DNA from: Dokdonia sp. Hel_I_53
Lineage (GTDB): Bacteria; Bacteroidota; Bacteroidia; Flavobacteriales; Flavobacteriaceae
Direction of reading: 5' to 3'
Assembly: GCF_007827465.1 (NCBI RefSeq)
Contig: NZ_VISL01000001.1
Coordinates: 1,033,501-1,097,500, forward strand
Length of the DNA: 64,000 nucleotides
The notes beneath the pieces were generated by a model. That model was not told the origin of the DNA. It saw nothing but the letters and a program-made list of their open reading frames with translations, and searched no databases. This document shows, one piece after another, positions 1,396-63,037 of the stretch. How positions within the stretch are numbered: the first letter of the stretch is position 1; each line of letters begins with the position of its first letter. A program made the position numbers and the translations under genes.

Positions 1396-1409
1396 GCTTT
1401 CGCGAAAGC
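1396..1409. repeat. Iterated palindrome copy 1 (exact)
   Basis: GCTTTCGCGAAAGC, one base after the stop codon of the tsaC-like gene. Confidence 0.9.
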
Positions 1410-1509
1410 GGGAACTTAAATTTTGAAAGACAATCCTCTAAAGATCATTTGTAATGATTTAATATCTAGCACTGGCTAAAAATTATTACAAGACATTTTA
1501 TTAGTACCA

Positions 1510-2925
1510 ATGAATTTAAAAAAAGCACTTTCCAATTCAATATTTAATACAATTACTAAGGCAGCAGATGATTTATCTCTAGAATCTTACGTAATAGGGG
1601 GCTTTGTGAGAGATTTCCTCTTAAAACGCGGAAAAGAGAAGGATATTGATATTGTTGCCATTGGAAGTGGTATTAAACTAGCAAGAAAAGTTTCAGATTT
1701 ATTACCAAGTAAACCAAAGATACAAGTCTTTAAGACTTACGGTACTGCGATGCTCAAATCTAATGACATTGATGTAGAATTTGTAGGAGCTCGTAAAGAA
1801 TCTTATGCACAAGACAGCCGTAATCCTATTGTAGAAGATGGAACGCTAGAAGACGATCAAAATCGTAGGGATTTTACTATAAACGCGCTTGCGATAAAGT
1901 TAAATAGTGATGGATATGGAGAGCTAATAGATCCCTTTAATGGACTAAGCGACCTTGAGCGTAAAATTATAAGGACTCCTCTTGATCCAGATATTACTTA
2001 CAGCGACGACCCCTTACGGATGATGCGTGCAATAAGATTTGCTACCCAGCTAGATTTTATGATAGAGCGCAGCTCCATAGAATCTATAACTCGCAATGCA
2101 GATCGTATAAAAATTATTACTAACGAACGTATAGTAGACGAGCTTCATAAAATCATGCTGAGCGATGTCCCGTCAAAAGGATTTTTGTTATTAGAAAAAA
2201 CTAGAATTCTCCAGCATATACTTCCAGAACTTACTGCACTCAAGGGAATCGATGAAAAAGAGGGCCAAAAACACAAAGACAACTTTTATCATACACTTGA
2301 AGTAGTAGACAACATTTCAAAACATACCGATGATTTATGGTTACGATGGGCAGCCCTGTTACACGATATAGGGAAAGCGCCTACTAAACGTTTTTCAAAA
2401 AAAGTGGGGTGGACGTTTCATGGTCACGAATTTGTAGGCTCAAAAATGGTTTACAAACTATTTAAGCGTCTTAAGATGCCCTTAAATGATAAAATGAAGT
2501 TAGTTCAAAAACTTGTTTTGATGAGCTCTAGACCTATTATTATCTCAGAAGACCATGTGACAGATAGTGCTGTGCGTCGATTAATTTTTGATGCTGGCGA
2601 CCACATAGAAGATTTAATGACTTTATGTGAAGCAGATATAACGACTAAGAATCCTCGGAAATTCAAGAAATACCACAACAATTTTCAAATTGTACGTGAG
2701 AAGATGAAAGAGGTAGAAGAACGTGACCATATACGTAACTTTCAGCCGCCTGTCTCTGGAAAAGAAATTATGGAACGTTTCAATTTAAAACCTTCACGTG
2801 AGATTGGGACTTTGAAAGAAGCAATTAAAGAAGCAATTCTTGAAGGTGAGATCCCTAATGACAAAGAAGCTGCAATAGCATATATGCTTGAAAAAGCAAA
2901 TGAAATGGGCTTAAAAAAATCCTGA
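1510..2925 (+). CDS. cca: CCA tRNA nucleotidyltransferase with HD domain
   Basis: A 471-residue class II tRNA nucleotidyltransferase that adds or repairs the 3'-CCA of tRNAs. Visible motifs are GGFVRD (about residue 31), the catalytic DIDIV (about 45), RRDFTINA (about 120), a DDPLRMMRAIRFA segment binding nucleotide and primer, and a C-terminal HD phosphohydrolase domain with LLHDIGKAP. The two tRNA-Glu genes later in this window do not encode CCA, which fits a need for this enzyme. It ends at a strong bidirectional hairpin shared with the converging CDGSH gene. Confidence 0.93.
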   Translation: MNLKKALSNSIFNTITKAADDLSLESYVIGGFVRDFLLKRGKEKDIDIVAIGSGIKLARKVSDLLPSKPKIQVFKTYGTAMLKSNDIDVEFVGARKESYAQDSRNPIVEDGTLEDDQNRRDFTINALAIKLNSDGYGELIDPFNGLSDLERKIIRTPLDPDITYSDDPLRMMRAIRFATQLDFMIERSSIESITRNADRIKIITNERIVDELHKIMLSDVPSKGFLLLEKTRILQHILPELTALKGIDEKEGQKHKDNFYHTLEVVDNISKHTDDLWLRWAALLHDIGKAPTKRFSKKVGWTFHGHEFVGSKMVYKLFKRLKMPLNDKMKLVQKLVLMSSRPIIISEDHVTDSAVRRLIFDAGDHIEDLMTLCEADITTKNPRKFKKYHNNFQIVREKMKEVEERDHIRNFQPPVSGKEIMERFNLKPSREIGTLKEAIKEAILEGEIPNDKEAAIAYMLEKANEMGLKKS

Positions 2926-2955
2926 GTCTTATTTTTTTTATAAAATTAAATTCGA

Positions 2956-3000
2956 AATAAAAATCCCGAAAATTCATTGAGAGATTTCGGGATTTTTATT
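2956..3000. terminator. Bidirectional terminator between cca and the CDGSH gene
   Basis: A perfect 16-bp stem (AATAAAAATCCCGAAA and its complement) with a 13-base loop and T-rich flanks on both strands, between two converging genes. Confidence 0.8.
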
Positions 3001-3024
3001 CCAAATATGTTGCTAAAATAATAT

Positions 3025-3270
3025 TTAGCAAGTTTTGTGTGTACCATCGCAATACGGTGGATTCATCGTCATCTTACATGTACACAAATAAACAGTTCCA
3101 GTTTGTTCTGCTTCAAACCTAAGGCTTGGAGTACTCTCTGCTGCTTTGTGACCTCCGTCACAGTAGGGTTGGTTTTCTGAGTGACCGCAAGTACACCAAG
3201 AATATTTCTTTCCTGCAACAACTTCGCAAGCTATTGGCTCCTTACCAGCCATTTTTTTATTGTCCTCCAT
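3025..3270 (-). CDS. Tandem CDGSH iron-sulfur domain protein
   Basis: An 81-residue protein with two CDGSH-type [2Fe-2S] motifs: CTCGHSENQPYCDGGH (about residues 26-41) and CTCKMTMNPPYCDGTH (about 63-78). Each has the C-x-C...C-D-G-x-H ligand set (three Cys, one His), as in MitoNEET-like and Miner2-like proteins. No signal peptide or membrane anchor is visible, so it is probably a soluble cytoplasmic redox or cluster-transfer protein. The physiological partner is not evident. It is monocistronic and convergent with cca. Confidence 0.88.
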   Translation of the reverse strand: MEDNKKMAGKEPIACEVVAGKKYSWCTCGHSENQPYCDGGHKAAESTPSLRFEAEQTGTVYLCTCKMTMNPPYCDGTHKTC

Positions 3271-3377
3271 AGTTTATTTTAAAAAGATAAAAGTCATGTT
3301 AATTATGATGAAGATACTCAAATATTAAAATCTAAGAAAGTAGACTCACAATATAGATTGAGTATGGATTATCTATA

Positions 3378-4154
3378 TTAATACAACAAGCTCTTTGAAA
3401 CTTTAGCAAAATTATCTTCAAACAATCTTATTGTGTAATCCAACAATTCTTCACCTCCTCTTCTACCATGTCCTGGAATTATAAGTCGCGTGTTAGGGTA
3501 GGTTTCTTTAACCTTTCTTATTGTATTCGACCATTCTGCTATAGATGCATCTGCTAGATTCCCCTTAGAACCATCTACTGGTTTAATTAAACATCCACCC
3601 AATAAAATATGATCATTTTCAATATAGGCGACAGCATTGTCATTCGTATGTCCAGCCCCTGGGTAAAACATAGAAATTTTATTAGTACCTAAAAAAAGAC
3701 TATCTACCATCTCAAATGAATGACTCAAAAAGATAGAATCTTTGGCCAGCAGTTGAGTGGTTTTTAATGACGCATATGTTGGAATATTAGCTTTGACAAA
3801 AGCGTTTATTCCCCCGGCTGCATCATTATGAGAATGGCTCACCATTACCGCTTTGATCTCAGATTTCAAATCTCTTGTAATATAGGCTATAAGTTGCTCT
3901 GAAATAGAATCATTAAGAGGTGTGTCAAATACAAAGACTTCACTTCCTTCTTTTCTAAAGAAGCCATTGCAAGGAATATAGCCTCCCTTACCATCTTTGA
4001 GATACGAAACATGTAGAAAATCATTCTCTGATAATTTTACAATTTCTAAAGGTCTCACATATGGCTGTATGTTAGAATCACTGCCATCCCAACAAGATTG
4101 CTGGAAACACAAAAAAGAAATAATGACTAAAAGTTGTAGCGACTTTTTAAACAT
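3378..4154 (-). CDS. Subclass B1 metallo-beta-lactamase, exported, probable lipoprotein
   Basis: A 258-residue MBL-fold protein with the full B1 zinc ligand set: H107, H109, D111 in SHSHND; H169 in GAGHTNDN; C188 in LLGGCLIK; H229 in GHG. K191, three residues after the zinc Cys, and N199 in GNLADA match the substrate-contact Lys224 and Asn233 of B1 enzymes. These features separate it from glyoxalase II-type MBL proteins. The N-terminus is hydrophobic and ends QQSCWDGSDS, a loose lipobox followed by the acidic-serine context of Bacteroidota lipoproteins. The start codon shares one base with the helicase stop (TAATG), suggesting translational coupling. Hydrolysis of beta-lactams, including carbapenems, is inferred from the family and not shown. 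Confidence 0.85.
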   Translation of the reverse strand: MFKKSLQLLVIISFLCFQQSCWDGSDSNIQPYVRPLEIVKLSENDFLHVSYLKDGKGGYIPCNGFFRKEGSEVFVFDTPLNDSISEQLIAYITRDLKSEIKAVMVSHSHNDAAGGINAFVKANIPTYASLKTTQLLAKDSIFLSHSFEMVDSLFLGTNKISMFYPGAGHTNDNAVAYIENDHILLGGCLIKPVDGSKGNLADASIAEWSNTIRKVKETYPNTRLIIPGHGRRGGEELLDYTIRLFEDNFAKVSKSLLY

Positions 4155-5627: not shown

Positions 5628-5643
5628 CGCTTTCGCGAAAGCG
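5628..5643. repeat. Iterated palindrome copy 2 (exact, extended to 20 bp)
   Basis: Core at 5629-5642; the symmetry extends to 5626-5645. It lies seven bases after the stop of the ABC permease gene and before its terminator. Confidence 0.9.
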
Positions 5644-8585: not shown

Positions 8586-9641
8586 TTATTTTTCTTCTTT
8601 ATTAAAATAGACTAAGTAATAATACATTTGCTTCTCTTCATCCCAGCCCTTCTCTACAAATTTTTGTGCACTCTCTGGATTTATAAAATCCATTTTAATC
8701 TGAATGTTTGTATCTAAATTAATAACATTCTTAATTTTTTTACGCTGTGTACTTACTGCAGAGTTACTGATAGGAAAGTTAGTTAGATCTTCAATTTTAT
8801 ATTTTGGAGATTGCTCCATTTTATAGTTTCGGAATTCTGGCACCAACGCTGGATTGTCTATTACTTCATTCATAAAAGCAGTCTCTTCAAATTTGTCATT
8901 TTTTGCAAAATGATTTACCGCTCTATTCATAAATAACACCTCTTCCTTTTTATCCTCTGCAGGTAGCACTACATCTTTTGCAAAGTCTTGACAAAACTTG
9001 AGATATTTTTTAGTATAAAAATTATCGTCCTCAAAAGCTTCTACACCAAGGAAGTTTTCCAGCCAGTATTTAGTATCATATCTATTAGAATCTACAGACA
9101 ACACCTTATATCCTTCCTCTGCTTTATGATTAAAAATTAGGCACCCTTTGTCTAATTTGTTGAGATTAATACCTTGTTCAAGTATCATTTGAAGGTTCGT
9201 TCCGCTTTCGCGAAATTTCAAAAAGTCTTGTTTTAATTCGCTTTTAAAAATACCTAATGCATCTGTTTTGATATTATCTATCTGCACTCCTTCTAAATGA
9301 ACGATATATAACTCTCCTGCTTTGATGTGTGGATGATCACTCTGAGCGTAAAGATGTTTTGCAATCTCTTCAGATAATAAATGCGTTGCACTAGGGTTCT
9401 CAAAAACTTTTTGTGCTAAGCTAAACAGCTCATTAAAAGTAATATCTTCTTCATGGAAAAATTTATAATAATTCTCTTCTTTCTCTCTAAAAGGCTTAAA
9501 GAAAAACTCCTTTACTAATGGCGTTAACTCATCACTTAGAGGGTAAGGATCTTGAGATACAAATAACCCTTCTGCCTTGCCTTTATTACCTACCCTATGT
9601 ATGGATAGTGACTCAATTTGCGCGCTATATAAATTAATCAT
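8586..9641 (-). CDS. Nucleoid-associated protein, NdpA/YejK (NA37) family
   Basis: A 351-residue protein resembling the 37-kDa nucleoid-associated family throughout, with the N-terminal pattern of a hydrophobic strand, basic residues, and later HIKAGELYIVHLEGVQID. In proteobacteria YejK associates with the nucleoid and with topoisomerases; the role in Bacteroidota is less clear. A partial palindrome copy lies inside the gene, encoding KFRES near residue 145. An independent unit: its 3' end meets a shared terminator and 137 bases separate it from the next gene upstream. Confidence 0.75.
   Translation of the reverse strand: MINLYSAQIESLSIHRVGNKGKAEGLFVSQDPYPLSDELTPLVKEFFFKPFREKEENYYKFFHEEDITFNELFSLAQKVFENPSATHLLSEEIAKHLYAQSDHPHIKAGELYIVHLEGVQIDNIKTDALGIFKSELKQDFLKFRESGTNLQMILEQGINLNKLDKGCLIFNHKAEEGYKVLSVDSNRYDTKYWLENFLGVEAFEDDNFYTKKYLKFCQDFAKDVVLPAEDKKEEVLFMNRAVNHFAKNDKFEETAFMNEVIDNPALVPEFRNYKMEQSPKYKIEDLTNFPISNSAVSTQRKKIKNVINLDTNIQIKMDFINPESAQKFVEKGWDEEKQMYYYLVYFNKEEK
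9203..9215. repeat. Iterated palindrome, partial copy inside the NdpA-like gene
   Basis: CGCTTTCGCGAAA is kept but the right arm ends in TT instead of GC (12 of 14 core bases). On the coding strand it reads FRES. Confidence 0.6.
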
Positions 9642-11468: not shown

Positions 11469-11484
11469 CGCTTTCGCGAAAGCG
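11469..11484. repeat. Iterated palindrome copy 3 (exact, 16 bp)
   Basis: Lies between the divergent ctaA and satD genes, upstream of both: one of the few copies 5' of genes on either side. Confidence 0.9.
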
Positions 11485-12989: not shown

Positions 12990-13004
12990 GGTTTCGCGAA
13001 AGCG
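12990..13004. repeat. Iterated palindrome, variant (13 of 14)
   Basis: GGTTTCGCGAAAGC differs by one base from the core. It lies eight bases after the lpdA stop (minus strand), between that stop and the terminator. Confidence 0.75.
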
Positions 13005-15428: not shown

Positions 15429-15455
15429 GATGTTTTATGCTTTCGCTAAAACATC
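15429..15455. repeat. Degenerate palindrome inside a 9-bp inverted repeat
   Basis: GATGTTTTA and TAAAACATC flank TGCTTTCGC, so a decayed copy of the iterated palindrome (11 of 14) sits at the tip of a larger hairpin between two divergent genes. Confidence 0.5.
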
Positions 15456-17610: not shown

Positions 17611-17626
17611 CGCTTTCGCGAAAGCG
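17611..17626. repeat. Iterated palindrome copy 4 (exact, symmetric over 22 bp)
   Basis: The symmetry extends to 17608-17629. Lies between the SDR stop and the photolyase start, inside a probable operon. Confidence 0.9.
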
Positions 17627-20679: not shown

Positions 20680-20693
20680 GCTTTCGCGAAAGC
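20680..20693. repeat. Iterated palindrome copy 5 (exact)
   Basis: Thirty-eight bases 3' of the pgl stop and upstream of the ABC-F promoter. Confidence 0.9.
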
Positions 20694-23139: not shown

Positions 23140-24555
23140 ATGGAGCATACTTACGATTTTGGACTAGTTGGTCTTGGAGTAATGGGTAGAAATTTTATCC
23201 TCAACGTAGCAGATAATGGATTTACTGCATTAGGTAACGATCTTGACCCACAAAAAGTTCAAGCCCTTATTGAAGAAGGTGGAAATACAGAGCGTGTCAA
23301 TGCTGTTGTAGAGGTTTCCGCTTTCGCGAAAGCATTATCATCTCCACGTAAAATTATGATGCTTGTTCCTGCTGGTAAAGTAGTAGATATTGTGATTGAA
23401 AGTTTACTTCCTCACCTAGATAAAGGTGATATTCTTATAGATGGTGGAAATTCTTTTTTTACAGATACGGATAGACGAGAAGCCTATCTTGCTGAAAAAG
23501 GCATCCACTTTTTTGGAGCCGGAGTATCTGGTGGTGCAGAAGGAGCTCGTAAAGGCCCTAGCATAATGCCAGGTGGATCAAAGGCTGGTTATGCCGCAGT
23601 ACAACCTATTTTTGAAGCTGTTGCTGCAAAATTTGAAGGCGAACCTTGTGTGGCATATTTGGGTCCAAAATCTGCTGGAAACTATGTGAAAATGGTGCAC
23701 AATGGGATTGAATATGGATTAATGCAACTCACCTCAGAAGTATATGATGTACTCAAAAAAGCTGGAAATTTATCAAATAATGAATTACACCATACCTACA
23801 AACAATGGAATGCAGGACGACTACAATCATTCTTGGTAGAAATAACCTCAGAGATATTTGCAGAGAAGGACAATTTAGGAAATGCAGACCTCATTGATCA
23901 AATACAAGATAAGGCTAAGCAAAAAGGCACTGGAAAATGGACTTCTCAAAATGCTATGGATTTGGGCATCCCTGTTCCTTCTATAGACATTGCCGTGAGC
24001 ATGAGAGAGATTTCTGCACTTAAAGATGAACGCACTATTGCAGATTCACTTTATGACCGTCCAGAAATTGCTCAAATGGACAAAGAAAAACTCATAGATC
24101 TTACAGAAAAGGCATTTTATTTTTCATATATCGTAACCTACGCACAAGGCTTACATCAACTTGCAGATGCTTCAAGAGAATACGGATACAACCTCAACAT
24201 TGCAGAAATTGCAAAAATTTGGAGAGCAGGGTGCATTATTAGAGCAAAACTGCTAGCAGACATTACTAAGGCTTTTGAAGCAGATACAGTACTTCCTAAC
24301 TTACTGCTTTCTCCATCATTTATTTCTAAGGTACAAGGCTCAGTGAGTGCCGCCAGAGAGTTAGTAGCTTTTGGTGCATTGAATGGCATTCCATTACCTG
24401 GAATTTCAAACTCGCTCACCTATTTTGATGCCTATACTTCAACACGTTTACCGCTTAACTTGATACAAGCACAACGTGATTATTTTGGTTCTCACACCTA
24501 TGAGAGACTGGACCGTGAAGGTGTTTTTCACACAGAATGGAAACTTAAAAATTAA
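23140..24555 (+). CDS. gnd: 6-phosphogluconate dehydrogenase, decarboxylating
   Basis: 471 residues from the Met at 23140 (MEHTYDFGLVGLGVMGRNF). The frame is open further upstream, but that part overlaps zwf and has no family similarity. Motifs are GLGVMGRN, GAGVSGGAEGARKGPSIMPGG, and YVKMVHNGIEYGLMQL with the catalytic Lys. It completes the oxidative pentose phosphate branch and produces ribulose 5-phosphate, CO2 and NADPH. A palindrome copy is read as SAFAKAL near residue 62. Its stop overlaps the stop of the converging GDPD gene. Confidence 0.95.
   Translation: MEHTYDFGLVGLGVMGRNFILNVADNGFTALGNDLDPQKVQALIEEGGNTERVNAVVEVSAFAKALSSPRKIMMLVPAGKVVDIVIESLLPHLDKGDILIDGGNSFFTDTDRREAYLAEKGIHFFGAGVSGGAEGARKGPSIMPGGSKAGYAAVQPIFEAVAAKFEGEPCVAYLGPKSAGNYVKMVHNGIEYGLMQLTSEVYDVLKKAGNLSNNELHHTYKQWNAGRLQSFLVEITSEIFAEKDNLGNADLIDQIQDKAKQKGTGKWTSQNAMDLGIPVPSIDIAVSMREISALKDERTIADSLYDRPEIAQMDKEKLIDLTEKAFYFSYIVTYAQGLHQLADASREYGYNLNIAEIAKIWRAGCIIRAKLLADITKAFEADTVLPNLLLSPSFISKVQGSVSAARELVAFGALNGIPLPGISNSLTYFDAYTSTRLPLNLIQAQRDYFGSHTYERLDREGVFHTEWKLKN
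23320..23333. repeat. Iterated palindrome copy 6 (exact, inside gnd)
   Basis: In frame in gnd as AFAKA, in a segment just before the strand RKIMMLVPAG. Confidence 0.9.
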
Positions 24556-25622
24556 CTCCTTGTATTCAGTTTTAGAAATTCGTTTCTAGCTCTTACCGCT
24601 TCATTGGTATAATCTGTAAATACACCATCTACGCCAGCCTCGAAGAATTTTAAGTATTCTTGAGTTGGCTCCTCATTAGATGACCACTGTTGATCCTCAT
24701 TTTTAAACGTATAGGGATGTACTTCAAGTTTGCTTTTATGAGCAAGCTCTACAAAATCAGTGGCAATGAGTGACTTTGGATGTGCAACTAAATCTCTAGC
24801 TACAGAAACTACAAATGGCTTCCATGGACCCACACCGTCTGCGTAGGTTGCCATAAATTCCATTCCCTTTGGGGTGGCAAAAAAACTATAGTCTCGCTTA
24901 TCATTTTCTACATAAAAATCGTAAGGCTGTCCCGAAGAATCATAGGAGCCATCTAATTTTTTAAATCGAAGGTCTCCGTTTTGATTATATCCTGAAGCTC
25001 CTATTAATTGCACTAACTTTACTGAAGTTTTTCTCCTTAAATACTGTAATGTTTTAACTTCAAAACATTGTACGTAAATTTTTGAATCCCTGCGAGTATA
25101 CTCAGCCTTTAACAATTGATTTAAGAATCGATCTTCCATCTCTAACCCCAATTGTTTGTGGAAAGTGGGATGTTTTAATTCTGGATAAATCCCTATTTCT
25201 TTTCCACTTTTCTTTTTATATGCTTTCAATAAAGCTATTATTTCTTCGAATGTTGGGATTTCAAACTGATCATCATAATTGTGAGGTCTGTTTTTCCAAA
25301 ATTGTCGCGTTTTTATTTTTTTAAGTTCAGCAACTGTAAAATCAGAGACAAACCAGTCTGTAACAATCTCCCCATCAAGAATCTTAGTAGTCTTTCGGTT
25401 TTGAAATTCTTTAAAGTTTGAGATATTCGTTTTTTGAGATAAATAGGGTTCATGGCGTGCTACAAATACACCATCTTTAGTTAAGACAAGATCTGGCTCA
25501 ATGTAATCAGCACCGAATTCAATAGCCTTTTGGTATCCTTCTATGGTATGTTCTGGGAAATGAGATTGTGCGCCGCGATGCGCTATTATAAGGGGAGAAA
25601 CACTGGAATGACGTTGCTTCAT
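24552..25622 (-). CDS. Glycerophosphodiester phosphodiesterase
   Basis: 356 residues of the GDPD TIM-barrel family (GlpQ-like): IIAHRGAQSHFPEHTIEGY with the catalytic His and Arg, then YIEPDLVLTKDGVFVARHEP with the metal-binding Glu/Asp and second His, and a late VDGVFTDYTNEAV. No signal peptide is visible, which is unusual for GlpQ-type enzymes acting in the periplasm. Cleaves glycerophosphodiesters to glycerol 3-phosphate and an alcohol. Stop codons overlap with gnd by three bases and no terminator lies between. Confidence 0.9.
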   Translation of the reverse strand: MKQRHSSVSPLIIAHRGAQSHFPEHTIEGYQKAIEFGADYIEPDLVLTKDGVFVARHEPYLSQKTNISNFKEFQNRKTTKILDGEIVTDWFVSDFTVAELKKIKTRQFWKNRPHNYDDQFEIPTFEEIIALLKAYKKKSGKEIGIYPELKHPTFHKQLGLEMEDRFLNQLLKAEYTRRDSKIYVQCFEVKTLQYLRRKTSVKLVQLIGASGYNQNGDLRFKKLDGSYDSSGQPYDFYVENDKRDYSFFATPKGMEFMATYADGVGPWKPFVVSVARDLVAHPKSLIATDFVELAHKSKLEVHPYTFKNEDQQWSSNEEPTQEYLKFFEAGVDGVFTDYTNEAVRARNEFLKLNTRS

Positions 25623-25730: not shown

Positions 25731-25746
25731 GATTATATTTTTTTAA

Positions 25747-25760
25747 TTTTCGCGAAAGCG
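25747..25760. repeat. Iterated palindrome, variant with decayed left arm
   Basis: TTTTCGCGAAAGCG; ten bases after the murA stop on the minus strand, between that stop and the terminator. Confidence 0.7.
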
Positions 25761-28093: not shown

Positions 28094-28109
28094 CGCTTTC
28101 GCGAAAGCG
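28094..28109. repeat. Iterated palindrome copy 7 (exact, symmetric over 26 bp)
   Basis: Symmetry reaches TTTTT/AAAAA on both sides (28089-28114). Eight bases after the stop of the 28118 gene; the T-run could let it act as a terminator. Confidence 0.9.
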
Positions 28110-31501: not shown

Positions 31502-32448
31502 GAGAGATACGCATTGTTTTTATGGGCACACCAGAATTTGCTGTAACCATTCTGAGTGGACTTTTAGAAGAAGGGTATAATGTAGTTGGAGTAATCACAG
31601 CACCAGATCGACCTGCTGGCCGGGGGCAGAAATTACGTAAAAGTGATGTTAAAGCGTATGCAGAGGCACACAATCTACCCATATTACAACCCACAAATCT
31701 AAAAGACACTTCGTTTATTGAGGAGCTTAAAGCATTAAATGCAAATCTACAAATTGTAGTAGCCTTTAGAATGTTACCTAAGGTGGTATGGGAAATGCCA
31801 GATTATGGAACCTTTAACCTTCATGCATCATTACTACCGCAATATAGAGGCGCCGCTCCTATAAATTGGGCAATTATCAATGGTGAAACAGAAACAGGAG
31901 TCACAACATTCTTTATAGATGATAAAATTGATACTGGAGAAATCATTTTACAAGAAAAAATTACAATAGATGATAAAGAGAATGCAGGACATTTACACGA
32001 CCGTTTAATGATTGCAGGAAAATCTCTTGTTATAAAAACAGTTCAATCCATAGAAAATAAAGAGGTAAAAACTTACGTTCAAAATGATGATTTTCAATTA
32101 AAAACAGCATACAAACTTCACAGTGAGAACACAAAAATTAACTGGACAGCTCCTCTTCAGGATATTTACAACCTTATAAGAGGACTAAGCCCCTATCCCT
32201 CTGCATATACGATCTTAGAAAATGGCGGTAAGGAGCAAAGAGTAAAAATTTATAACGCTTTCGCGAAAGCAGAATCTCAAATGTATATCCCACCTGGAGC
32301 TGTTACCATAGCAGATGATCACCTAGCTATTGCTACACCAGAAGGCTATATCTGTATAACGGAAATGCAATTATCAGGAAAGAAAAAAATGGCTGTAAAA
32401 GATTTATTAAATGGTTATAAATTTGACAAAAATGCCAAAATGCGCTAA
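31498..32448 (+). CDS. fmt: Methionyl-tRNA formyltransferase
   Basis: 316 residues. Transfers formyl from 10-formyl-THF to Met-tRNAfMet. Catalytic segment FNLHASLLPQYRGAAPINWA (Asn and His) and the SLLPQYRG motif; GVTTFFIDDKIDTG carries the Asp. The C-terminal beta-barrel follows from about residue 205. Within it a palindrome copy is translated as NAFAKAE (about residue 255), between strands. Starts in the recQ stop codon (ATGA). Last gene of the three-gene operon. Confidence 0.95.
   Translation: MREIRIVFMGTPEFAVTILSGLLEEGYNVVGVITAPDRPAGRGQKLRKSDVKAYAEAHNLPILQPTNLKDTSFIEELKALNANLQIVVAFRMLPKVVWEMPDYGTFNLHASLLPQYRGAAPINWAIINGETETGVTTFFIDDKIDTGEIILQEKITIDDKENAGHLHDRLMIAGKSLVIKTVQSIENKEVKTYVQNDDFQLKTAYKLHSENTKINWTAPLQDIYNLIRGLSPYPSAYTILENGGKEQRVKIYNAFAKAESQMYIPPGAVTIADDHLAIATPEGYICITEMQLSGKKKMAVKDLLNGYKFDKNAKMR
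32257..32270. repeat. Iterated palindrome copy 8 (exact, inside fmt)
   Basis: In frame as NAFAKAE, the same heptapeptide that the copy in the GH13 gene encodes. Confidence 0.9.
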
Positions 32449-34039: not shown

Positions 34040-35707
34040 ATGAATAGTACACTAAGAATTATCATATTAATTTTTTTCATATGTATTTCTTGCCAATATA
34101 AGGAAACTAGCATTCAAGATAAAAAATCCTCTGAAACGTCTCCATTTTTTTGGGAAGCAGCAAATATGTATTTCTTACTAACAGATCGCTTTTATAATGG
34201 CACTACATCAAATGATGTTAATTTTGATCGTACAAGAGAAACAGGTGTTCTACGTGGTTTTAAAGGAGGTGACTTAATAGGAATTAGAAAAAAAATTGAA
34301 GAGGGTTATTTTACAGATTTAGGGATTAATGCAATTTGGTTTACTCCTGTAGTAGAGCAGATACACGATGTCGTAGATGAAGGTACTGGACCCACATATG
34401 GGTATCATGGTTATTGGGCAAAAGATTGGACTGCGCTAGATCCTAACTTTGGCACCCGTGAAGATCTTAAGGCAGTTGTAGATGAAGCTCATAAAAGAGG
34501 TATCCGTATTGTTATGGATGTTGTCCTTAATCATACAGGGCCTGTCACAATAAAAGACCCTTTTTGGGGTGAAGATTGGGCTAGAGAGAATCCTAACTGT
34601 AAATTTTCTACTTATGAGAATACAACTGCTTGTAGCCTTGTTGAAAATCTCCCTGACATTCTCACAGAGAGCAATGTGGAGGTAATGCTTCCTGAGACAC
34701 TTATAAAAAAATGGAAAAAAGAAGGTCGCTACAAGCAAGAAATAGAAGAACTAGATGATTATTTTGCAATAAATAAGCTTTCTAAAACCCCACGAAATTA
34801 TATAATCAAATGGTTAACTGATTTTATAGAAGAGTTTGGAATTGATGCATTTAGAGTAGATACTACAAAACATGTTGATGAAGCTTCTTGGGTTATTTTA
34901 CGTGAGCAATCTGAAAAAGCATTTAATACTTACAAAAGTAAAAATCCTAAAAAAGTGCTGGATGATATAGGTTTTTTCATGTTTGGAGAAGTATACAATT
35001 ATTCTATTGACAACGGCAGAGAATACGATTTTGGTGATAAAAAGGTCGACTATTTTGAAAATGGTTTTGACAATCTTATTAATTTCCAGTTTAAATATGA
35101 TGCAGAAAATAGTTATGAAGATCTCTTTAGTAAATATGCTTCACTAAAGGATTCTGTATTTTCAGATAAAAGCTTTGTTAATTACGCCACCTCTCATGAT
35201 GATGGCCAGCCTTTTGACAAGAACCGTACGCGCTCAAAAGAAATAGCATCTAAATTATTGCTCACCACTGGTATTTCTCAAATTTATTATGGTGATGAAA
35301 CAGGGAGAGACCTTACTATTGAGGGAGCAAATGGGGATGCTACTTTACGGAGTTTTATGAATTGGGAAGATTTAAAAAATCCTCAAACTCAAGAACTACT
35401 GTCTCACTGGCAAAAGTTAGGTAGATTCAGAATAGCTCACCCAGCTATAGGTGCAGGAAAACACAAAATGATTTCAGAAGAACCTTACATCTTTAGACGT
35501 TATTTCGAAAAAAACGGTTTTAAGGATGAAGTTATTGTAGGCCTTGAACTTCCAATTGGAACTAAAGTTATTGAGCTAAATAACGCTTTCGCGAAAGCAG
35601 AGCATGTAACAGACACGTATTCTGGAAAAACAGTCCCCGTAATTGATGGTGAAATTACACTTGATACTCCCTATGGAACAGTACTGCTAGAAATAGCTAA
35701 AAACTAA
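34040..35707 (+). CDS. GH13 alpha-amylase family lipoprotein
   Basis: 555 residues. The hydrophobic N-terminus ends ICISCQY, giving a probable lipidated Cys18. The four GH13 regions are present: DVVLNHT, GIDAFRVDTTKH (nucleophile Asp), FGEVYN (acid Glu) and ATSHDD (transition-state Asp). An all-beta C-terminal domain follows and includes a palindrome copy read as NAFAKAE. Likely periplasmic or outer-membrane cleavage of alpha-glucans; the exact specificity is not visible. It stands outside any SusCD locus and its stop overlaps the converging flavoprotein gene. Confidence 0.9.
   Translation: MNSTLRIIILIFFICISCQYKETSIQDKKSSETSPFFWEAANMYFLLTDRFYNGTTSNDVNFDRTRETGVLRGFKGGDLIGIRKKIEEGYFTDLGINAIWFTPVVEQIHDVVDEGTGPTYGYHGYWAKDWTALDPNFGTREDLKAVVDEAHKRGIRIVMDVVLNHTGPVTIKDPFWGEDWARENPNCKFSTYENTTACSLVENLPDILTESNVEVMLPETLIKKWKKEGRYKQEIEELDDYFAINKLSKTPRNYIIKWLTDFIEEFGIDAFRVDTTKHVDEASWVILREQSEKAFNTYKSKNPKKVLDDIGFFMFGEVYNYSIDNGREYDFGDKKVDYFENGFDNLINFQFKYDAENSYEDLFSKYASLKDSVFSDKSFVNYATSHDDGQPFDKNRTRSKEIASKLLLTTGISQIYYGDETGRDLTIEGANGDATLRSFMNWEDLKNPQTQELLSHWQKLGRFRIAHPAIGAGKHKMISEEPYIFRRYFEKNGFKDEVIVGLELPIGTKVIELNNAFAKAEHVTDTYSGKTVPVIDGEITLDTPYGTVLLEIAKN
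35585..35598. repeat. Iterated palindrome copy 9 (exact, inside the GH13 gene)
   Basis: In frame as NAFAKAE in the C-terminal beta domain. Confidence 0.9.
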
Positions 35708-40654: not shown

Positions 40655-40726
40655 GGCCCGTTCGTCTATCGGCTAGGACGCATGGTTTTCATCCATGTAA
40701 GAGGGGTTCGATTCCCCTACGGGCTA
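40655..40726 (+). tRNA. tRNA-Glu (UUC), first copy
   Basis: 72 bases to the discriminator A. Acceptor GGCCCGT/ACGGGCT (G1-U72 wobble), anticodon stem CATGG/CCATG around loop TTTTCAT with anticodon TTC, T-arm GGGG-TTCGATT-CCCC. The CCA is not encoded (CAAA follows). Confidence 0.97.
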
Positions 40727-40770
40727 CAAACCAAGTACGAGGTTAAAAGTACATTTTAGTGAATTTTTAA

Positions 40771-40842
40771 GGCCCGTTCGTCTATCGGCTAGGACGCATG
40801 GTTTTCATCCATGTAAGAGGGGTTCGATTCCCCTACGGGCTA
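40771..40842 (+). tRNA. tRNA-Glu (UUC), second identical copy
   Basis: Identical to the first copy over all 72 bases, 44 bases downstream, with no promoter or terminator in between, so both are probably cut from one precursor. rpsT starts 28 bases after it. Confidence 0.97.
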
Positions 40843-40870
40843 CAATTTTATAATTATACAAAAAACAATA

Positions 40871-41195: not shown

Positions 41196-41211
41196 CGCTT
41201 TCGCGAAAGCG
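41196..41211. repeat. Iterated palindrome copy 10 (exact, 18 bp with flanks)
   Basis: Lies 20 bases after the rpsT terminator and 126 bases before rplS. Confidence 0.9.
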
Positions 41212-41336
41212 TAATCAAAGCAACACTACTTAAATAAACCCGCTTACTACTATAAAATAGTTTGCACCCATTTGACTAACCTCTGACGATAAACGTGAAT
41301 GTTACTTGAATGTAAAACCATTGAAATATCTCAAAG

Positions 41337-44538: not shown

Positions 44539-44554
44539 CGCTTTCGCGAAAGCG
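44539..44554. repeat. Iterated palindrome copy 11 (exact, 16 bp)
   Basis: Six bases after the icd stop and 16 bases before the terminator stem. Confidence 0.9.
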
Positions 44555-44650: not shown

Positions 44651-47029
44651 ATGAAAAAAAATTGGTTACTCCTACTTTTTTGTGGATGCTTTTTGATTAG
44701 TCAAGCACAACAAAAATATACGCTTAGTGGTACCATCACAGACGCGGCAAGTAATGAAACTCTTATAGGTGTCTCGCTTCTTTTTCCTGAAATATCTGAT
44801 GGAGTTGTTACAAATTCTTATGGTTTTTACTCAATTACTCTTCCTCAAGGCACCTATACTGTAGAAGTAAGATACTTGGGGTATAGCACTGTCTCTAAAA
44901 CATTTACATTAAACCAAGATATTCGTGAAAATTTTGAACTTCTAGAAGTATTAGAATCACTAGATGAGGTGATCATAGAAGAAAAAGTAGAGCGTGTCCG
45001 TATACGAAAACCTCAAATGAGTGTAAATGCACTTACGGCAGAAACTATAAAAGATATTCCCGTAGTACTTGGGGAGGCAGATGTTATTAAAGCCATATTA
45101 CTATTACCCGGTGTTACTAGTGCCGGTGAGGGTGCGTCTGGCTTTAACGTGAGAGGGGGTGCAGCAGATCAAAATTTGATTTTACTTGATGAAGCTACTA
45201 TTTTTAATTCTTCTCATTTATTTGGGTTCTTTTCTGTTTTTAATCCTGATGCTATTAAAGATTTAAAATTGTATAAAGGAGGTATTCCTGCTAGATATGG
45301 GGGTCGTGTATCTTCTGTTCTCGACATTTATCAAAAAGAAGGTAATAGCAAAAAATTTAAAGTAAACGGCGGCATAGGAGCTGTCTCTAGTAGATTATTA
45401 GTAGAGGGGCCTATAGTAAAAGATAAAGCTGCATTTTTGTTAGGAGGGCGAGCATCCTATGCCCATTTGTTTTTACCATTATTTAATATTGATAATAGTG
45501 CATATTTCTACGATTTAAATACAAAGATTAATTACAATATTAATGATAATAACAGTCTATATCTTTCTGGATATTTTGGCCGTGATCTCTTTAGTGTGCA
45601 AGAAAGCTTCAAAAATGTTTATGGAAATGCAGTGGGGAATTTACGATGGAATCATATATTTTCTGACAAATTATTTTCAAATGCCTCACTTATCTATAGT
45701 GATTATTATTATGGGTTAGATCTTGATTTTGTAGGTTTTGAATGGAATTCTGGTATATCAAATATCAATGTCAAATATGACTTGACTCATTATCTAAATG
45801 ACAAGTTAAAAATATACTCAGGGATTAATAATTTATACTACACATTTAATCCTGGTCGTATCAAACCAAATGGTCCAGATTCTGGGATTGTAGAAGAACA
45901 GCTTACCAAGAAATATGCAAATGAGTTTGCTGCATATGTGGACATTGAGCAAAAATTAAGTAAAAATTTTACCATAGAATACGGTTTAAGATATAGCAAT
46001 TTCATTAGACTAGGTCAAGATGAGATTAATGAATATCGTGACAATCTAGCAGTTACTTTTGACCCCACTCTTCTTATTTACCAAAGTGCAGACCCTATTG
46101 ATGTAAATAGAAATGGGAAAAGAAGTGATAACCTAGCCACATTTAATTATTTTGAACCAAGAGTTGCTGGCTCTTATGCTTTCAATGATGACTCGTCTAT
46201 TAAGGGTAGCTATACAAGACTTGTGCAGTATCTCCATCTATTATCAAACACAAGTTCTCCCACTCCATTAGATATTTGGACACCTAGTGGACCTTTTGTG
46301 AAACCACAACAATTAGATCAATATGCTTTAGGGTATTTTAAAAACTTTAGCTTTCGCGAAAGCGAATACACTATAGAAAGCGAGGTGTTTTTTAAAGATA
46401 TAAAAGGACGCATTGACTATATTGATGGAGCTCAGCTTATTGCTAACAATGCTATAGAACAAGTAATCTTACAGGGTGAAGGCAGGGCTTATGGACTAGA
46501 GTTTTTATTACGTAAAAATGAAGGAAAGCTAAAAGGATTTTTAGCCTACACCCTCTCAAAGTCAGAACAACGTACACCGGGAAGAAATGAGAACGAGTTA
46601 GGCATTAACCGTGGAAAATGGTATAACACGCCTTATGACAAAACTCACGACATTTCTATTAATGCAAGTTACGAAATAAGTAAAAAATGGAAATTAGGAA
46701 GTAATTTTCTTTTTCAAACGGGACAACCCACTAATTTCCCAATAGGTCAATTTGAATTTCAAGGCATTATAACACCAATTTACGGCCCTCGTAATAAGCA
46801 GCGCTTGCCTTCATACCATCGATTAGACCTAAGCGCAACATTAACTCCCCAAAAAAACAAAAATAGAAAATGGCAATCTGAGTGGGTTTTTAGTATGTAT
46901 AATATATATAATCGTCGCAATGCGGCATCTATTAACTTTAGACAAAATGAGAATACCGGAGCAAATGAAGCAGTGCGCACTTCTATTTTTGGTATCATTC
47001 CATCTGTTACTTATAACTTTAAATTCTAA
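44651..47029 (+). CDS. TonB-dependent outer membrane receptor
   Basis: 792 residues. Signal peptide to about residue 19, a carboxypeptidase-regulatory-like domain (YTLSGTITDAASNETLIGVSL) to about 105, a plug with FNVRGGAADQNLILLDEAT and GGIPARYGGRVSSVLDI, then a 22-strand-type barrel ending in an aromatic Phe. The plug lacks the long SusC features. A palindrome copy inside the barrel is read as SFRESE near residue 570. The next gene, one base after the stop, is a DUF4249 lipoprotein, a common pairing in Bacteroidota. Ligand unknown. Confidence 0.92.
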   Translation: MKKNWLLLLFCGCFLISQAQQKYTLSGTITDAASNETLIGVSLLFPEISDGVVTNSYGFYSITLPQGTYTVEVRYLGYSTVSKTFTLNQDIRENFELLEVLESLDEVIIEEKVERVRIRKPQMSVNALTAETIKDIPVVLGEADVIKAILLLPGVTSAGEGASGFNVRGGAADQNLILLDEATIFNSSHLFGFFSVFNPDAIKDLKLYKGGIPARYGGRVSSVLDIYQKEGNSKKFKVNGGIGAVSSRLLVEGPIVKDKAAFLLGGRASYAHLFLPLFNIDNSAYFYDLNTKINYNINDNNSLYLSGYFGRDLFSVQESFKNVYGNAVGNLRWNHIFSDKLFSNASLIYSDYYYGLDLDFVGFEWNSGISNINVKYDLTHYLNDKLKIYSGINNLYYTFNPGRIKPNGPDSGIVEEQLTKKYANEFAAYVDIEQKLSKNFTIEYGLRYSNFIRLGQDEINEYRDNLAVTFDPTLLIYQSADPIDVNRNGKRSDNLATFNYFEPRVAGSYAFNDDSSIKGSYTRLVQYLHLLSNTSSPTPLDIWTPSGPFVKPQQLDQYALGYFKNFSFRESEYTIESEVFFKDIKGRIDYIDGAQLIANNAIEQVILQGEGRAYGLEFLLRKNEGKLKGFLAYTLSKSEQRTPGRNENELGINRGKWYNTPYDKTHDISINASYEISKKWKLGSNFLFQTGQPTNFPIGQFEFQGIITPIYGPRNKQRLPSYHRLDLSATLTPQKNKNRKWQSEWVFSMYNIYNRRNAASINFRQNENTGANEAVRTSIFGIIPSVTYNFKF
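46350..46364. repeat. Iterated palindrome copy 12 (exact, inside the TonB receptor gene)
   Basis: Read in the second frame as SFRESE, probably in a barrel loop. Confidence 0.9.
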
Positions 47030-47942: not shown

Positions 47943-47957
47943 CGCTTTTGCGAAAGC
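47943..47957. repeat. Iterated palindrome, variant (13 of 14)
   Basis: GCTTTTGCGAAAGC, 24 bases after the DUF4249 stop; the next bases form a separate imperfect hairpin (47957-47992). Confidence 0.75.
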
Positions 47958-54442: not shown

Positions 54443-54458
54443 CGCTTTCGCGAAAGCG
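54443..54458. repeat. Iterated palindrome copy 13 (exact, 16 bp)
   Basis: Between two divergent genes, 46 bases before the ATG at 54505. Confidence 0.9.
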
Positions 54459-58890: not shown

Positions 58891-58905
58891 AAGGGTAGCC
58901 CTAAT

Positions 58906-58940: not shown

Positions 58941-58959
58941 TTAAAATATCTAATCAGTC

Positions 58960-60411: not shown

Positions 60412-60416
60412 CGACT

Positions 60417-61829
60417 ATGGGCAGACGTAAACAAAATAGACAAGTTTTTGAAAATATACCTGTGACAGATGCTGGCGCAAAAGGAAAAGCTATTGGTCAT
60501 GCACCAGATGGTAAGGTAATATTTATCAATAATGCCATTCCTGGTGATGTGGTACATGTACAAACTACAAAAAAACGCAAAGCTTATTACGAAGGAACAG
60601 CTACTGAAGTGGTTACGCTTTCGCGAAAGCGTACACAACCTCAATGTCAGCACTTTGAAGTTTGCGGTGGTTGTAAGTGGCAAAACATGGAGTACAAATA
60701 CCAGCTCGAGTACAAGCAACAAGAGGTGGTAAATAATCTCACACGTTTAGGAAAAATTGAATTACCTGAAATAACACCCATAGCTGGTAGCGCCGAAGAA
60801 TATTTCTATCGCAATAAAATGGAGTTTGGTTTTTCAGATTCAAAATGGCTCACACTTGATCAAATTAGATCTGGTGAAATCATTGAAGATCGTAATGCGT
60901 TGGGCTTTCACATAGCGGGTATGTGGGATAAAATTCTTGATATTGAAAAGTGTCATTTACAGAGAGACCCTAGCAATGCAATTCGTAATGGAATCAAAGA
61001 ATTTGCCACGTCAAATGATATGACGTTTTATAATGCGCGTAATCAAGAAGGGTTTCTCCGCACACTTATGATCCGTACAAGTTCAAATGGAGAGCTAATG
61101 GTTCTAGTACAATTTTTTAAAGAAGACTCTAAGAATCGAACGTTATTACTTGATTACATAAAAGACACTTGGCCAGAAATCACTTCACTCTTGTATGTTA
61201 TAAATGAAAAAGGTAATGACACTATTTATGATCAAGAGGTCATCTGTTATGCAGGTCGAGATCATATCTTTGAAGAGATGGAGGGTTTAAAATTTAAAAT
61301 AAACGCCAAATCTTTTTACCAGACCAACTCTAAGCAAGCCTATGAGTTGTATAAAATAACTCGTGATTTTGCAGGACTTACCGGTGATGAGCTTGTATAC
61401 GATCTATATACTGGTACTGGAACTATTGCTCAGTTTGTTGCGAAGAAGGCAAGAAAAGTCATTGGTGTAGAAGCCGTCCCAGATGCGATTACAGCAGCAA
61501 AGGAAAATGCACAACTCAACAACATAGATAATGCAGAGTTTTACGTGGGTGATATGAAAAAAGTGTTTAATACTGAGTTTATAAACACACATGGACAGCC
61601 AGATATTATTATTACAGATCCTCCGCGTGATGGCATGCATGGAGATGTTGTACAGCAAATCTTAAATATATCCCCGGCAAAGATTGTATATGTAAGCTGT
61701 AACAGTGCAACACAAGCACGTGATCTTGCGTTACTAGATGATATATATAAAGTGACTCGAGTGCAACCTGTTGACATGTTCCCGCAAACACATCATGTGG
61801 AAAACGTCGTACTTCTAGAAAAAAGATAA
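60417..61829 (+). CDS. rlmD: 23S rRNA (uracil-5-)-methyltransferase RlmD-like
   Basis: 470 residues from MGRRKQNRQVF. An N-terminal TRAM domain (AIGHAPDGKVIFINNAIPGD) precedes the [4Fe-4S] cysteines (CQHFEVCGGCKWQNM, plus C in EKCHLQ) and the SAM-binding LVYDLYTGTGTIAQF, DPPRDGMH and catalytic VYVSCNSATQARD. Methylates a uracil in 23S rRNA (U1939 in E. coli); other TrmA-like targets are possible. A palindrome copy inside the TRAM-to-cluster segment is read as TLSRKRT near residue 70. Two small membrane-anchored genes follow. Confidence 0.9.
   Translation: MGRRKQNRQVFENIPVTDAGAKGKAIGHAPDGKVIFINNAIPGDVVHVQTTKKRKAYYEGTATEVVTLSRKRTQPQCQHFEVCGGCKWQNMEYKYQLEYKQQEVVNNLTRLGKIELPEITPIAGSAEEYFYRNKMEFGFSDSKWLTLDQIRSGEIIEDRNALGFHIAGMWDKILDIEKCHLQRDPSNAIRNGIKEFATSNDMTFYNARNQEGFLRTLMIRTSSNGELMVLVQFFKEDSKNRTLLLDYIKDTWPEITSLLYVINEKGNDTIYDQEVICYAGRDHIFEEMEGLKFKINAKSFYQTNSKQAYELYKITRDFAGLTGDELVYDLYTGTGTIAQFVAKKARKVIGVEAVPDAITAAKENAQLNNIDNAEFYVGDMKKVFNTEFINTHGQPDIIITDPPRDGMHGDVVQQILNISPAKIVYVSCNSATQARDLALLDDIYKVTRVQPVDMFPQTHHVENVVLLEKR
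60616..60631. repeat. Iterated palindrome copy 14 (exact, inside rlmD)
   Basis: Read in the third frame as TLSRKRT, so the set of in-gene copies covers all three frames. Confidence 0.9.
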
Positions 61830-61830
61830 T

Positions 61831-62328
61831 ATGAGAAAGTTGATCTTACTATTTTTATTGATCATAGGACTCCTTCATACTTCTTGTGAAAGAGATGATA
61901 TTTGTGCGGCAACTACACAAACGACACCTTTACTTAGAATTGAATTTTATGACGCAAACAATATATCTATATTAAAAGCTCCAACAAATTTAGAAATTAC
62001 AACAGCTGTAGAAGGAGGAGATACGTTAGCCCTTGTAAATACTTCATCGGTTGCTATACCTTTGAACACAAGTGTTGATCAACTTGTATATTCATTTAAA
62101 ATTAATAGCTTAGAAGTAGATGAAGATGAAGAAAATACAGATGATCTTGCTATATCATACATTCGTCAGGAAGATTTTGTTAGTTCTGCCTGCGGATTTA
62201 GAGTCATTTATAATGACCTAGAAATAACAAGAGACGCACTAAACGATGGTAACTGGATTCAGGATATCGATATTTTAAACACAATAATAGATAATGACAC
62301 GATCACGCACGTTACTATATTTCATTAG
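61831..62328 (+). CDS. DUF6452-like lipoprotein
   Basis: 165 residues with a signal peptide and lipobox (LLHTSCERDDIC). One base after the rlmD stop, so co-transcribed. Resembles the small DUF6452 lipoproteins found next to RlmD and DUF6048 in flavobacteria. Contains two further Cys (one in DICAATT, one in SSACGFRV) that might form a disulfide. Function unknown. It overlaps the next gene by 35 bases. Confidence 0.75.
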   Translation: MRKLILLFLLIIGLLHTSCERDDICAATTQTTPLLRIEFYDANNISILKAPTNLEITTAVEGGDTLALVNTSSVAIPLNTSVDQLVYSFKINSLEVDEDEENTDDLAISYIRQEDFVSSACGFRVIYNDLEITRDALNDGNWIQDIDILNTIIDNDTITHVTIFH

Positions 62329-63004
62329 TATTTTTCTTTTTCTCACCGCCTCAGTATACTCACAAAATTCTGAGAAAGTCATAGATAACGATACTCTCAA
62401 AAAAAATAAGAAATATTACGGCCTACGCGTAGGACTTAATTTGTCTAAACCTATTCTTTCCATTATTGATCCTAATTTTAAAGGTTTTGGAATAGTAGGA
62501 GATTTTAGAATAAAAAAAAATTACTATTTAGCAGCAGCTCTTGGAAATGAGACTCGCACCATAGAGCTTCCTAATATAGAAAACACAACAAAAGGCAGCT
62601 ACATAAAAGCTGGATTTAATTACAATGCTTATGAGAACTGGTATGGTATGAATAATTTATTGTATGCGGGAGTATATGCAGGTTTTTCAAGTTTTACTCA
62701 GGAGCTAGATCGCTATACAATATATACTACCACTACTCCTTTTGAAGATGACATACGTATAGCATCCCAAGAGTTCAAAAATTTAAATGCTACTTGGTTA
62801 GAACTAAAAATAGGTATCGAAGTTGAATTATTTAATAACCTATATCTAGGGCTTAATGCCCAACTCAAGAGATCGATTATCGTTAAAGAACCAGAAGAAT
62901 ATGCAAACCTATATATTCCAGACTTTGGAAAAGTCACTGAGGACAATACAATAGGTGTGGGTTATGGTTATACACTTACCTACTTATTCCCTTTTGTCAA
63001 ATAA
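62294..63004 (+). CDS. DUF6048-like outer membrane beta-barrel protein
   Basis: 236 residues with a signal peptide (cleaved near SVYSQ). The mature part alternates hydrophobic and polar residues in short strands and ends YTLTYLFPFVK, typical of small outer-membrane barrels; it fits the DUF6048 family. The start lies within the 3' end of the DUF6452 gene. Last gene of the rlmD operon; the long-standing link with an rRNA methyltransferase has no known reason. Confidence 0.78.
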   Translation: MTRSRTLLYFISIFLFLTASVYSQNSEKVIDNDTLKKNKKYYGLRVGLNLSKPILSIIDPNFKGFGIVGDFRIKKNYYLAAALGNETRTIELPNIENTTKGSYIKAGFNYNAYENWYGMNNLLYAGVYAGFSSFTQELDRYTIYTTTTPFEDDIRIASQEFKNLNATWLELKIGIEVELFNNLYLGLNAQLKRSIIVKEPEEYANLYIPDFGKVTEDNTIGVGYGYTLTYLFPFVK

Positions 63005-63021
63005 TAATTGAATATTAATTA

Positions 63022-63037
63022 CGCTTTCGCGAAAGTG
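63022..63037. repeat. Iterated palindrome, variant (13 of 14)
   Basis: GCTTTCGCGAAAGT core, 17 bases after the DUF6048 stop and nine before the stop of the RlmL-like gene on the other strand. Confidence 0.8.

Follow-up and report, generated by a model that had tools for sequence, protein, structure and literature searches.

Sequence motifs that are iterated over whole bacterial genomes are rare, to our knowledge. The architectural sites parS, NBS, matS and SBS are palindromes of 12–16 bp; parS and NBS have 14–16 bp with TTTC…GAAA arms that are 4 bp apart, and matS, the site of MatP, is restricted to the terminus region. Chi sites, which are read by helicase-nucleases of the RecBCD/AddAB type, have 5–8 nt, are not palindromic and are found in E. 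coli about once per 5 kb; RecA prefers GT-rich DNA. DNA uptake sequences (DUS) and uptake signal sequences (USS) are asymmetric, and the extended USS has a core with T-rich flanks. According to the accessible parts of two studies, these sequences are over-represented, strictly conserved and relatively evenly spaced in permissive locations, with an average USS spacing of about 1,000 bp (PMC2397512, PMC7811141). HIP1 (GCGATCGC) of cyanobacteria is a palindrome of 8–10 bp that is iterated over whole genomes of related bacteria and has no proven function; the accessible part of PMC4390886 treats its function as still disputed, includes a model based on a methylase and biased mismatch repair, and does not contain terms for Bacteroidetes or Flavobacteria. 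Here we describe a 14-nt palindrome, GCTTTCGCGAAAGC, that is iterated in a stretch of 64,000 nt from Dokdonia sp. Hel_I_53 (positions 1,033,501–1,097,500 of a single 2.93-Mb contig; the whole stretch is called the window below), throughout the genome of this flavobacterium, and in further genomes of the Flavobacteriaceae.

In form the palindrome resembles HIP1, as a preliminary description of the window had proposed, because it is short, iterated genome-wide and restricted to some related bacteria. HIP1 proper was rejected, as the sequence differs from GCGATCGC and the host group is not the cyanobacteria. In addition, the element has a 14-bp core with skewed flanks of about 20 bp and occurs about once per 4 kb, genomes with hundreds of copies (site-rich genomes) share no methylase among three families tested, and avoidance of distances below 1 kb was measured here. 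Unlike DUS and USS, it is palindromic and less dense, and the PF00437 ATPase did not exceed the cut-off in 7 of 9 site-rich genomes. It has arms like those of parS and NBS, but they are 2 bp apart. With Chi it shares a similar density and a GT-rich strand beside the motif, and genome G190 encodes a candidate enzyme of the RecBCD/AddAB class, whereas the element is palindromic and about twice as long. Like matS, it is a palindrome, but its density is flat along the chromosome. In the literature searched by sequence, which covered few subscription journals, neither the 14-mer nor its 12-bp core nor its 16-bp extension was found. The 10-bp core TTTCGCGAAA does appear there, in papers whose titles indicate no relation, and titles and beginnings of abstracts in the literature searched contained no description of such a palindrome for Flavobacteria, Bacteroidetes or Dokdonia.

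The palindrome is iterated throughout the genome

A sequence scan of the window revealed 14 exact copies of GCTTTCGCGAAAGC, at every coordinate given in the preliminary description, and six further copies with one or two mismatches. The variants listed earlier are all real: those at 12990, 47944 and 63023 have one mismatch and the one at 25746 has two, while the variant placed at 9203 begins at 9204 and has two mismatches. The list was incomplete, however, since a two-mismatch copy at 15439 was absent from it. The 20 copies with up to two mismatches compare with 0.12 (standard deviation 0.38) expected from dinucleotide-preserving shuffles. In the whole genome the exact word occurs 700 times and the reversed control word not at all, so that the claim of an abundance far above expectation holds.

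A sample of 784 kb, composed of the window and 36 stretches of 20 kb each, one per 80 kb, contained 195 exact copies, 25 copies with one mismatch and 28 with two (counts that take in a few masked bases). A fourth-order Markov model predicted 0.013 exact copies for this sample; a fifth-order model, trained on the same enriched sequence, predicted 1.9. Altogether, 195 of the 270 TCGCGA hexamers in the sample sit inside the exact motif. One of the 20-kb stretches (L088) has 10 exact copies, twice the sample mean. The palindrome is thus iterated in the manner of HIP, far above chance across the genome and in relatives. The preliminary description had named a genome-wide count against a Markov model and a comparison with related Flavobacteriaceae as checks; the count exceeded expectation by far, copies were not restricted to the window, and the comparison revealed hundreds of copies in three genera and 1–19 in 56 other genomes.

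The core lies within symmetric, strand-skewed flanks

The alignment of 380 sites extended the consensus to TTAC, the core GCTTTCGCGAAAGC and GTAA, with a C at position −1 in 81% of the half-sites. In the left flank, positions −3 to −20 have a C content of 3–14%, compared with 16% farther out, and G or T is elevated at most positions; the right flank is the mirror image. On each strand, a GT-rich, C-poor region of about 20 bp accordingly lies 5' of the core. The same flank pattern is present in genomes G206, G242 and G010 (the latter with four sites only), and it is weaker in the GC-richer G190. Beyond TTAC and GTAA, the flanks share composition but little sequence consensus. The left and right flanks are nearly independent of one another (correlation of C counts 0.12 over the 380 sites), and pairing between them is no greater than predicted by composition, save for a small excess at positions −1 and −2. 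Taken together, the element is a unit of about 50 bp that consists of a GT-rich, C-poor region of about 20 bp, TTAC-GCTTTCGCGAAAGC-GTAA, and the mirror image of that region. The earlier statement that the palindrome is neither an insertion sequence (IS) nor a miniature inverted-repeat transposable element (MITE) stands, as the flanks show nothing of that kind, whereas the statement that it belongs to no larger unit is right only in part. A MITE or a repetitive extragenic palindromic (REP) element was rejected on the same grounds, that is, because homologous sequence beyond the core is scarce. A 3-bp periodicity of the flanks, reminiscent of recombinase triplets, was also rejected, because it arises from coding sites and noncoding sites have no 3-bp period (p 0.84). 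At noncoding sites a 6-bp period reached p 0.02 among seven periods tried, which we did not count as a signal.

Degenerate copies are informative about the symmetry. Of the 72 two-mismatch copies in the samples of site-rich genomes, 45 exchange exactly one outer GC for two A/T bases. Such one-sided variants are expected if the half-sites are read separately, which suggests a pair of half-sites in which one may be weaker than the other. Among 55 single-mismatch copies, 10 have a C-to-T change at the outer C of the central CGCG.

Copies avoid one another below 1 kb

Most copies are at least 1 kb apart, and the average distance is about 4–5 kb. The spacing in the window is fairly even, as described earlier, but it ranges from 1.8 to 8.1 kb and not from about 1.5 to 6.5 kb. 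For the first 100 sites of the source genome (G000) the coefficient of variation of the spacing is 0.71, compared with 0.99 (standard deviation 0.10) for random points, and only two gaps are shorter than 1 kb, compared with 20 expected. The corresponding values are 0.74 and 4 versus 22.8 gaps for G299, and 0.67 and 6 versus 17.4 gaps for G190, for which the 10-bp core was used. When the coding or noncoding placement was preserved, the 784-kb sample had 5 gaps below 1 kb versus 41.7 expected. Gaps of 500–1000 bp alone numbered 3 versus 17.6, so the avoidance is not merely a matter of one site per intergenic region. For 414 sites from several species, in which orthologous places are not independent, the pair density below 1 kb was 0–0.22 of the expected value; at 1.25–1.5 kb it was 0.78. 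No trend in density from origin to terminus was found (rho −0.14, p 0.41; 37 stretches, origin inferred from skew). The largest of the first 99 gaps in the source genome is a site-free region of 20.0 kb (C1 391633–411628); its end, read as open reading frames (ORFs) only, looks like mobile DNA.

Gene context points to the DNA level

Genes in the 784-kb sample were called with a home-made hexamer caller in place of a curated annotation, which yielded 774 genes and a coding fraction of 89.8%. An earlier, cruder caller (72% coding; 68 coding and 127 intergenic sites) was superseded and is used here only for the comparison of flanks by context. Of the 195 copies, 103 are located inside genes and 92 between genes, corresponding to densities of 0.146 and 1.15 sites per kb, respectively. 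The intergenic density is 1.34 per kb between codirectional, 1.00 between divergent and 1.01 between convergent genes. With the cruder caller, the sense strand at coding sites is C-poor upstream and G-poor downstream, as at noncoding sites, and the skew is equal for sites in long open frames and for sites in none. Within genes, the frame GCT TTC GCG AAA GC (Ala-Phe-Ala-Lys-Ala) is preferred (57:20:26), and 24 of the 103 coding copies are in the first 90 nt of the gene, compared with 10.2 expected. In the source genome and in G190, a copy is situated 37 nt beyond the parB stop codon, within a signal-peptide-like part of the next gene; G206, G010 and G242 have no copy at that position.

Because the density hardly depends on gene direction and coding sites share the flanks of noncoding sites, we conclude that the element acts at the DNA level. 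The RNA hairpin considered in the preliminary description finds no support in this density, in the copies inside genes, or in flanks that extend the stem no further than their composition predicts. An intrinsic terminator, a promoter or an RNA hairpin was rejected, as the placement does not favor transcript ends and the core is followed on its 3' side by A/C-rich sequence without a T-run.

Copies are conserved in place between species

Conservation was analyzed with about 40 kb around ProS from nine species of the genus, about 22 kb from G306, and stretches of G206; the counts per slot depend on the regions fetched. Summed over the 11 rows of blastn alignments, 40 of 51 aligned window sites were identical, compared with 1.4–3.9% of other 14-mers; this count comprises alignable sites only, from related species that are not independent of one another. 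The slot at 35,585 holds an exact copy in 11 of 11 regions and also in G303 and G307. The sequence around the slot at 41,197 is mostly unalignable by eye across the regions, yet the copy is retained exactly in the majority of them (Table 1). There is also turnover: slots near 25,226 and 33,015 are occupied in relatives and empty in the source genome.

Table 1. Copies of the palindrome in the window (positions in nt; no strand assigned)
Position	Copy	Context	Same slot in other genomes of the genus
1396..1409	exact	begins 2 nt past the end of an ORF	
5629..5642	exact	intergenic, codirectional neighbors	
9204..9217	half-variant GCTTTCGCGAAA-TT, 2 mismatches		
11470..11483	exact	divergent genes on either side	
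12990..13003	1 mismatch	intergenic, convergent	
15439..15452	2 mismatches		
17612..17625	exact	intergenic	
20680..20693	exact	intergenic	exact in G299 and G313
23320..23333	exact	within ORF	exact in G299, G313 and G206
25746..25759	half-variant AT-TTTCGCGAAAGC, 2 mismatches		
28095..28108	exact	intergenic	exact in G299 and G313, with differing flanks there
32257..32270	exact	within fmt (methionyl-tRNA formyltransferase), reads Ala-Phe-Ala-Lys-Ala	exact in 5/11 regions fetched
35585..35598	exact	close to 3' end of alpha-amylase-like gene	exact in 13/13 other species fetched
41197..41210	exact	intergenic, upstream of L19 leader	exact in 7/11 regions
44540..44553	exact	directly past isocitrate dehydrogenase gene	exact in 7/11 regions
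46350..46363	exact	within ORF	no counterpart in G299
47944..47957	1 mismatch	intergenic	
54444..54457	exact		exact in G311; 2-mismatch half-variant in five other regions
60617..60630	exact	within ORF	exact in G299, G301 and G313
63023..63036	1 mismatch	intergenic, convergent	

RNA features were also noted in the window. An L19-Flavobacteria ribosomal protein leader (Rfam RF03130; window 41277–41304) lies about 70 bp downstream of the conserved copy at 41197, and a tandem pair of tRNA-Glu (TTC) genes (window 40655–40843) directly follows proS.

Site-rich genomes belong to three genera

At least one exact copy is present in 61 of 299 genomes of the family. Only five have hundreds of copies, and these are spread over three genera: the source genome (700) and G206 (857) of its own genus g1, G010 (578) and G242 (664) of g11, and G190 (408) of g191. 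The remaining 56 carriers have 1–19 copies, the highest numbers being 19, 17 and 16. All 18 species of the own genus that were examined have 369–905 copies, a number that does not track genome size; the two genomes with the lowest counts are 78% and 85% complete. The 10-bp core TTTCGCGAAA occurs 832, 700 and 559 times in the source genome, G242 and G190, respectively, whereas each of the other 12 genomes tested has 2–34 copies of it and 3–21 of the reversed control. "Dialect" words that share the 10-bp core were thus not seen in other genera. When loci of 9 kb or more from outside the samples of the own genome and genus were surveyed for further iterated palindromes, only scattered 10-mers with 3–4 copies appeared besides this core. 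No copy was found in 80 named loci around relatives of fmt among the matches listed (the best of these 66% identical). Five site-poor relatives likewise have none in 40 kb around ProS, even when two mismatches are allowed. The same 40 kb contain nine copies each in G242 and G010, and a single exact copy in G190. A tree of 45 ProS sequences does not unite the three site-rich genera in one clade; three changes are needed, two of which are forced by starred branches. As the tree rests on one gene only, several histories are compatible with this distribution, and repeated loss, repeated gain or transfer may each explain it.

For the copies in site-poor genomes, 20 stretches from 14 genomes were fetched. 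Four of these genomes (G101, G078, G215 and G087) have a pair of copies 933 bp apart within an ORF of 405 aa. In G078 this ORF encodes an outer membrane efflux protein and is preceded by a gene for an ACR_tran (RND) transporter of 1250 aa, with an AraC-type regulator downstream. A gene of this type and of about 405 aa that contains the palindrome, next to a gene of about 1250 aa (an RND transporter in L034), was observed at six loci from several distant genera (L031, L034, L035, L038, L047 and L049). Other copies tested are in RND/efflux fusions (G012, G201), a Fur-family gene (G012), a DUF4138 gene (G201) and an AbiEii-type gene (G101); these identities rest on tests of 8 proteins from 4 genomes. 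DUF4138 proteins are part of conjugative transposons. In G087, 6 of 7 core copies are within 22 kb. Judging from these sequences, the scattered copies are a possible footprint of gene transfer out of the site-rich genera.

Exact copies are also present in at least 120 stretches of viral contigs; of those listed, 109 hold a single copy and eleven hold two or three. Most of the single copies are probably due to chance, because their pooled flanks are unskewed. In the multi-copy contigs, 9 of 10 ORFs tested (five contigs) match PHROG families, including a head protease, a DNA primase, a tape-measure protein and a transposase. Phage-type genes together with several copies were observed in L257, L248, L318, L312 and L249, with one copy within the head protease gene.

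Candidate readers

Each of five site-rich genomes has one ParB_N match and no extra reader of the ParB family. The putative helix-turn-helix region of ParB does not differ by eye between site-rich and site-poor rows, and the canonical parS word is absent from the 784-kb sample. Among methylases, PF00145 occurs in G206 and G010 but not in the source genome, G242 or G190 (five site-rich genomes tested). In nine site-rich genomes, PF01555 exceeded the cut-off in G010 and G190 only, and PF02086 was clear in G206 and G299, weak in the source genome and absent in the other six. The site-rich genomes thus share none of the three families, and G242 lacks them all; as far as these three families go, the methylation site that the preliminary description had listed among its options is not supported.

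Another of these options, an uptake signal, fits the distribution of the element but not the gene content in every respect. All 18 genomes tested, site-rich and site-poor alike, have ComEC, whereas PF00437 (ATPase of type IV pili/type II secretion) exceeded the cut-off in 2 of 9 site-rich (G000, G242) and 2 of 9 site-poor (G175, G102) genomes, so that 7 of 9 site-rich genomes have no match above it. In G190, locus L120 (10395–19079), which happened to be part of the sample, encodes a RecB/AddA-like helicase and an AddB-like PD-(D/E)XK protein, separated by OmpA-like and aminotransferase genes; both calls exceed Pfam cut-offs and are below the curated cut-offs of NCBIfam.

Possible functions of the element

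We tentatively favor, as possible rather than probable, that the palindrome is the predicted binding site of a dimeric chromosomal protein that marks or organizes the chromosome about every 4 kb. One sequence-specific protein with two-fold symmetry would read the element of about 50 bp as a duplex; such a reader is suggested by the palindromic core, by the symmetry of its flanks and by the half-site variants. The bound protein would mark or organize the chromosome, e.g. by anchoring or bridging it about every 4 kb, and would not control single genes; placement regardless of gene context and the scarcity of distances below 1 kb speak for a whole-chromosome role. Copy number would stay near one per 4 kb through selection that acts on spacing instead of gene context. 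The sharpness of the motif, with 195 exact versus 25 one-mismatch copies, is consistent with a site of this kind. Of the options in the preliminary description, a protein-binding site for nucleoid organization is thus the best that remains, although the protein was not found. Several observations weigh against it. The strand-specific, GT-rich and C-poor flanks are unusual for a protein that binds duplex DNA and suit a single-strand reader at least equally well; this is the poorest fit to a dimer, and it favors a strand-reading enzyme of the Chi type. The organizer sites matS and parS cluster near the terminus or the origin, whereas the density of the element is flat between the two. Long site-free stretches are tolerated, i.e. 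the 20.0-kb gap in the source genome and the 40 kb of G190 with its one exact copy, and an organizer would not require sites on viral contigs with phage-type genes. ParB/Noc was rejected as the reader, because no extra or altered ParB was found, and no reader protein emerged from the candidates tested, no genome-wide search for a reader gene having been made. Finally, the accessible parts of the two studies cited above report that DNA uptake sequences, too, are evenly spaced and strictly conserved (PMC2397512, PMC7811141).

These reports lead to an uptake or molecular-drive sequence, for which competent cells would prefer DNA with the element, and biased uptake and recombination would multiply and maintain the copies, as happens with DUS and USS in Neisseria and the Pasteurellaceae. 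The element is similar to DUS and USS in its relatively even spacing, its strict conservation and its preference for permissive locations, the core with its T-rich flanks resembles the extended USS, and ComEC is encoded throughout. ComEC is equally present in site-poor relatives, however, PF00437 is found in the same share of both groups, the density is about 1/4 of that of USS, and the element is palindromic. Because spacing, conservation and placement agree, we regard this explanation as unlikely but worth keeping in spite of the missing pilus ATPase. The flank skew is accommodated best by a bidirectional Chi-like site, at which a helicase-nuclease of the AddAB/RecBCD type would read the palindrome from either side and switch to recombination, with the GT-rich strand favoring RecA loading; the repair site named in the preliminary description, or a role in recombination, may take this form. 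The GT-rich, C-poor strand 5' of the core is where RecA would load after Chi recognition, G190 encodes candidate enzymes, and the sites on phage-type contigs fit as well; yet Chi sites are shorter and asymmetric, and a 14-nt palindrome could fold back as a single strand, which makes this a distinctly unlikely option. Form and abundance, as well as the C-to-T changes in 10 of 55 single-mismatch copies, recall HIP1 and would fit an orphan methylase that recognizes a sequence inside the motif and, together with biased mismatch repair, makes and keeps copies. With 664 copies in G242 in spite of its lack of all three methylase families, with no PF00145 in G000 and G190, and with 14 bp plus flanks exceeding a usual methylase target, such a mechanism appears improbable. 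An RNA-level element, i.e. a terminator or processing hairpin, or a short mobile repeat could draw on the perfect inverted repeat of the core and on copies that follow stop codons. It can hardly be reconciled with a density barely tied to gene direction, with 103 of 195 copies inside genes, with A/C-rich instead of T-rich sequence 3' of the core, or with flanks of little consensus beyond TTAC/GTAA, and we consider it very improbable.

If the predicted dimeric protein exists, three genera of Flavobacteriaceae would use a so far undescribed genome-wide address system with a palindromic element of about 50 bp, about 400–900 copies, and a putative dimeric reader, a scenario that we put forward with reserve. 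The function can be tested in this group, which offers a long exact core, a deficit of distances below 1 kb that can be measured, related genera almost without sites, and cultivable relatives (Dokdonia). We know of no genome-wide chromosome-organizing site, uptake sequence or palindromic Chi in the Bacteroidota; whichever of these explanations is right, the Bacteroidota would gain one of the three.

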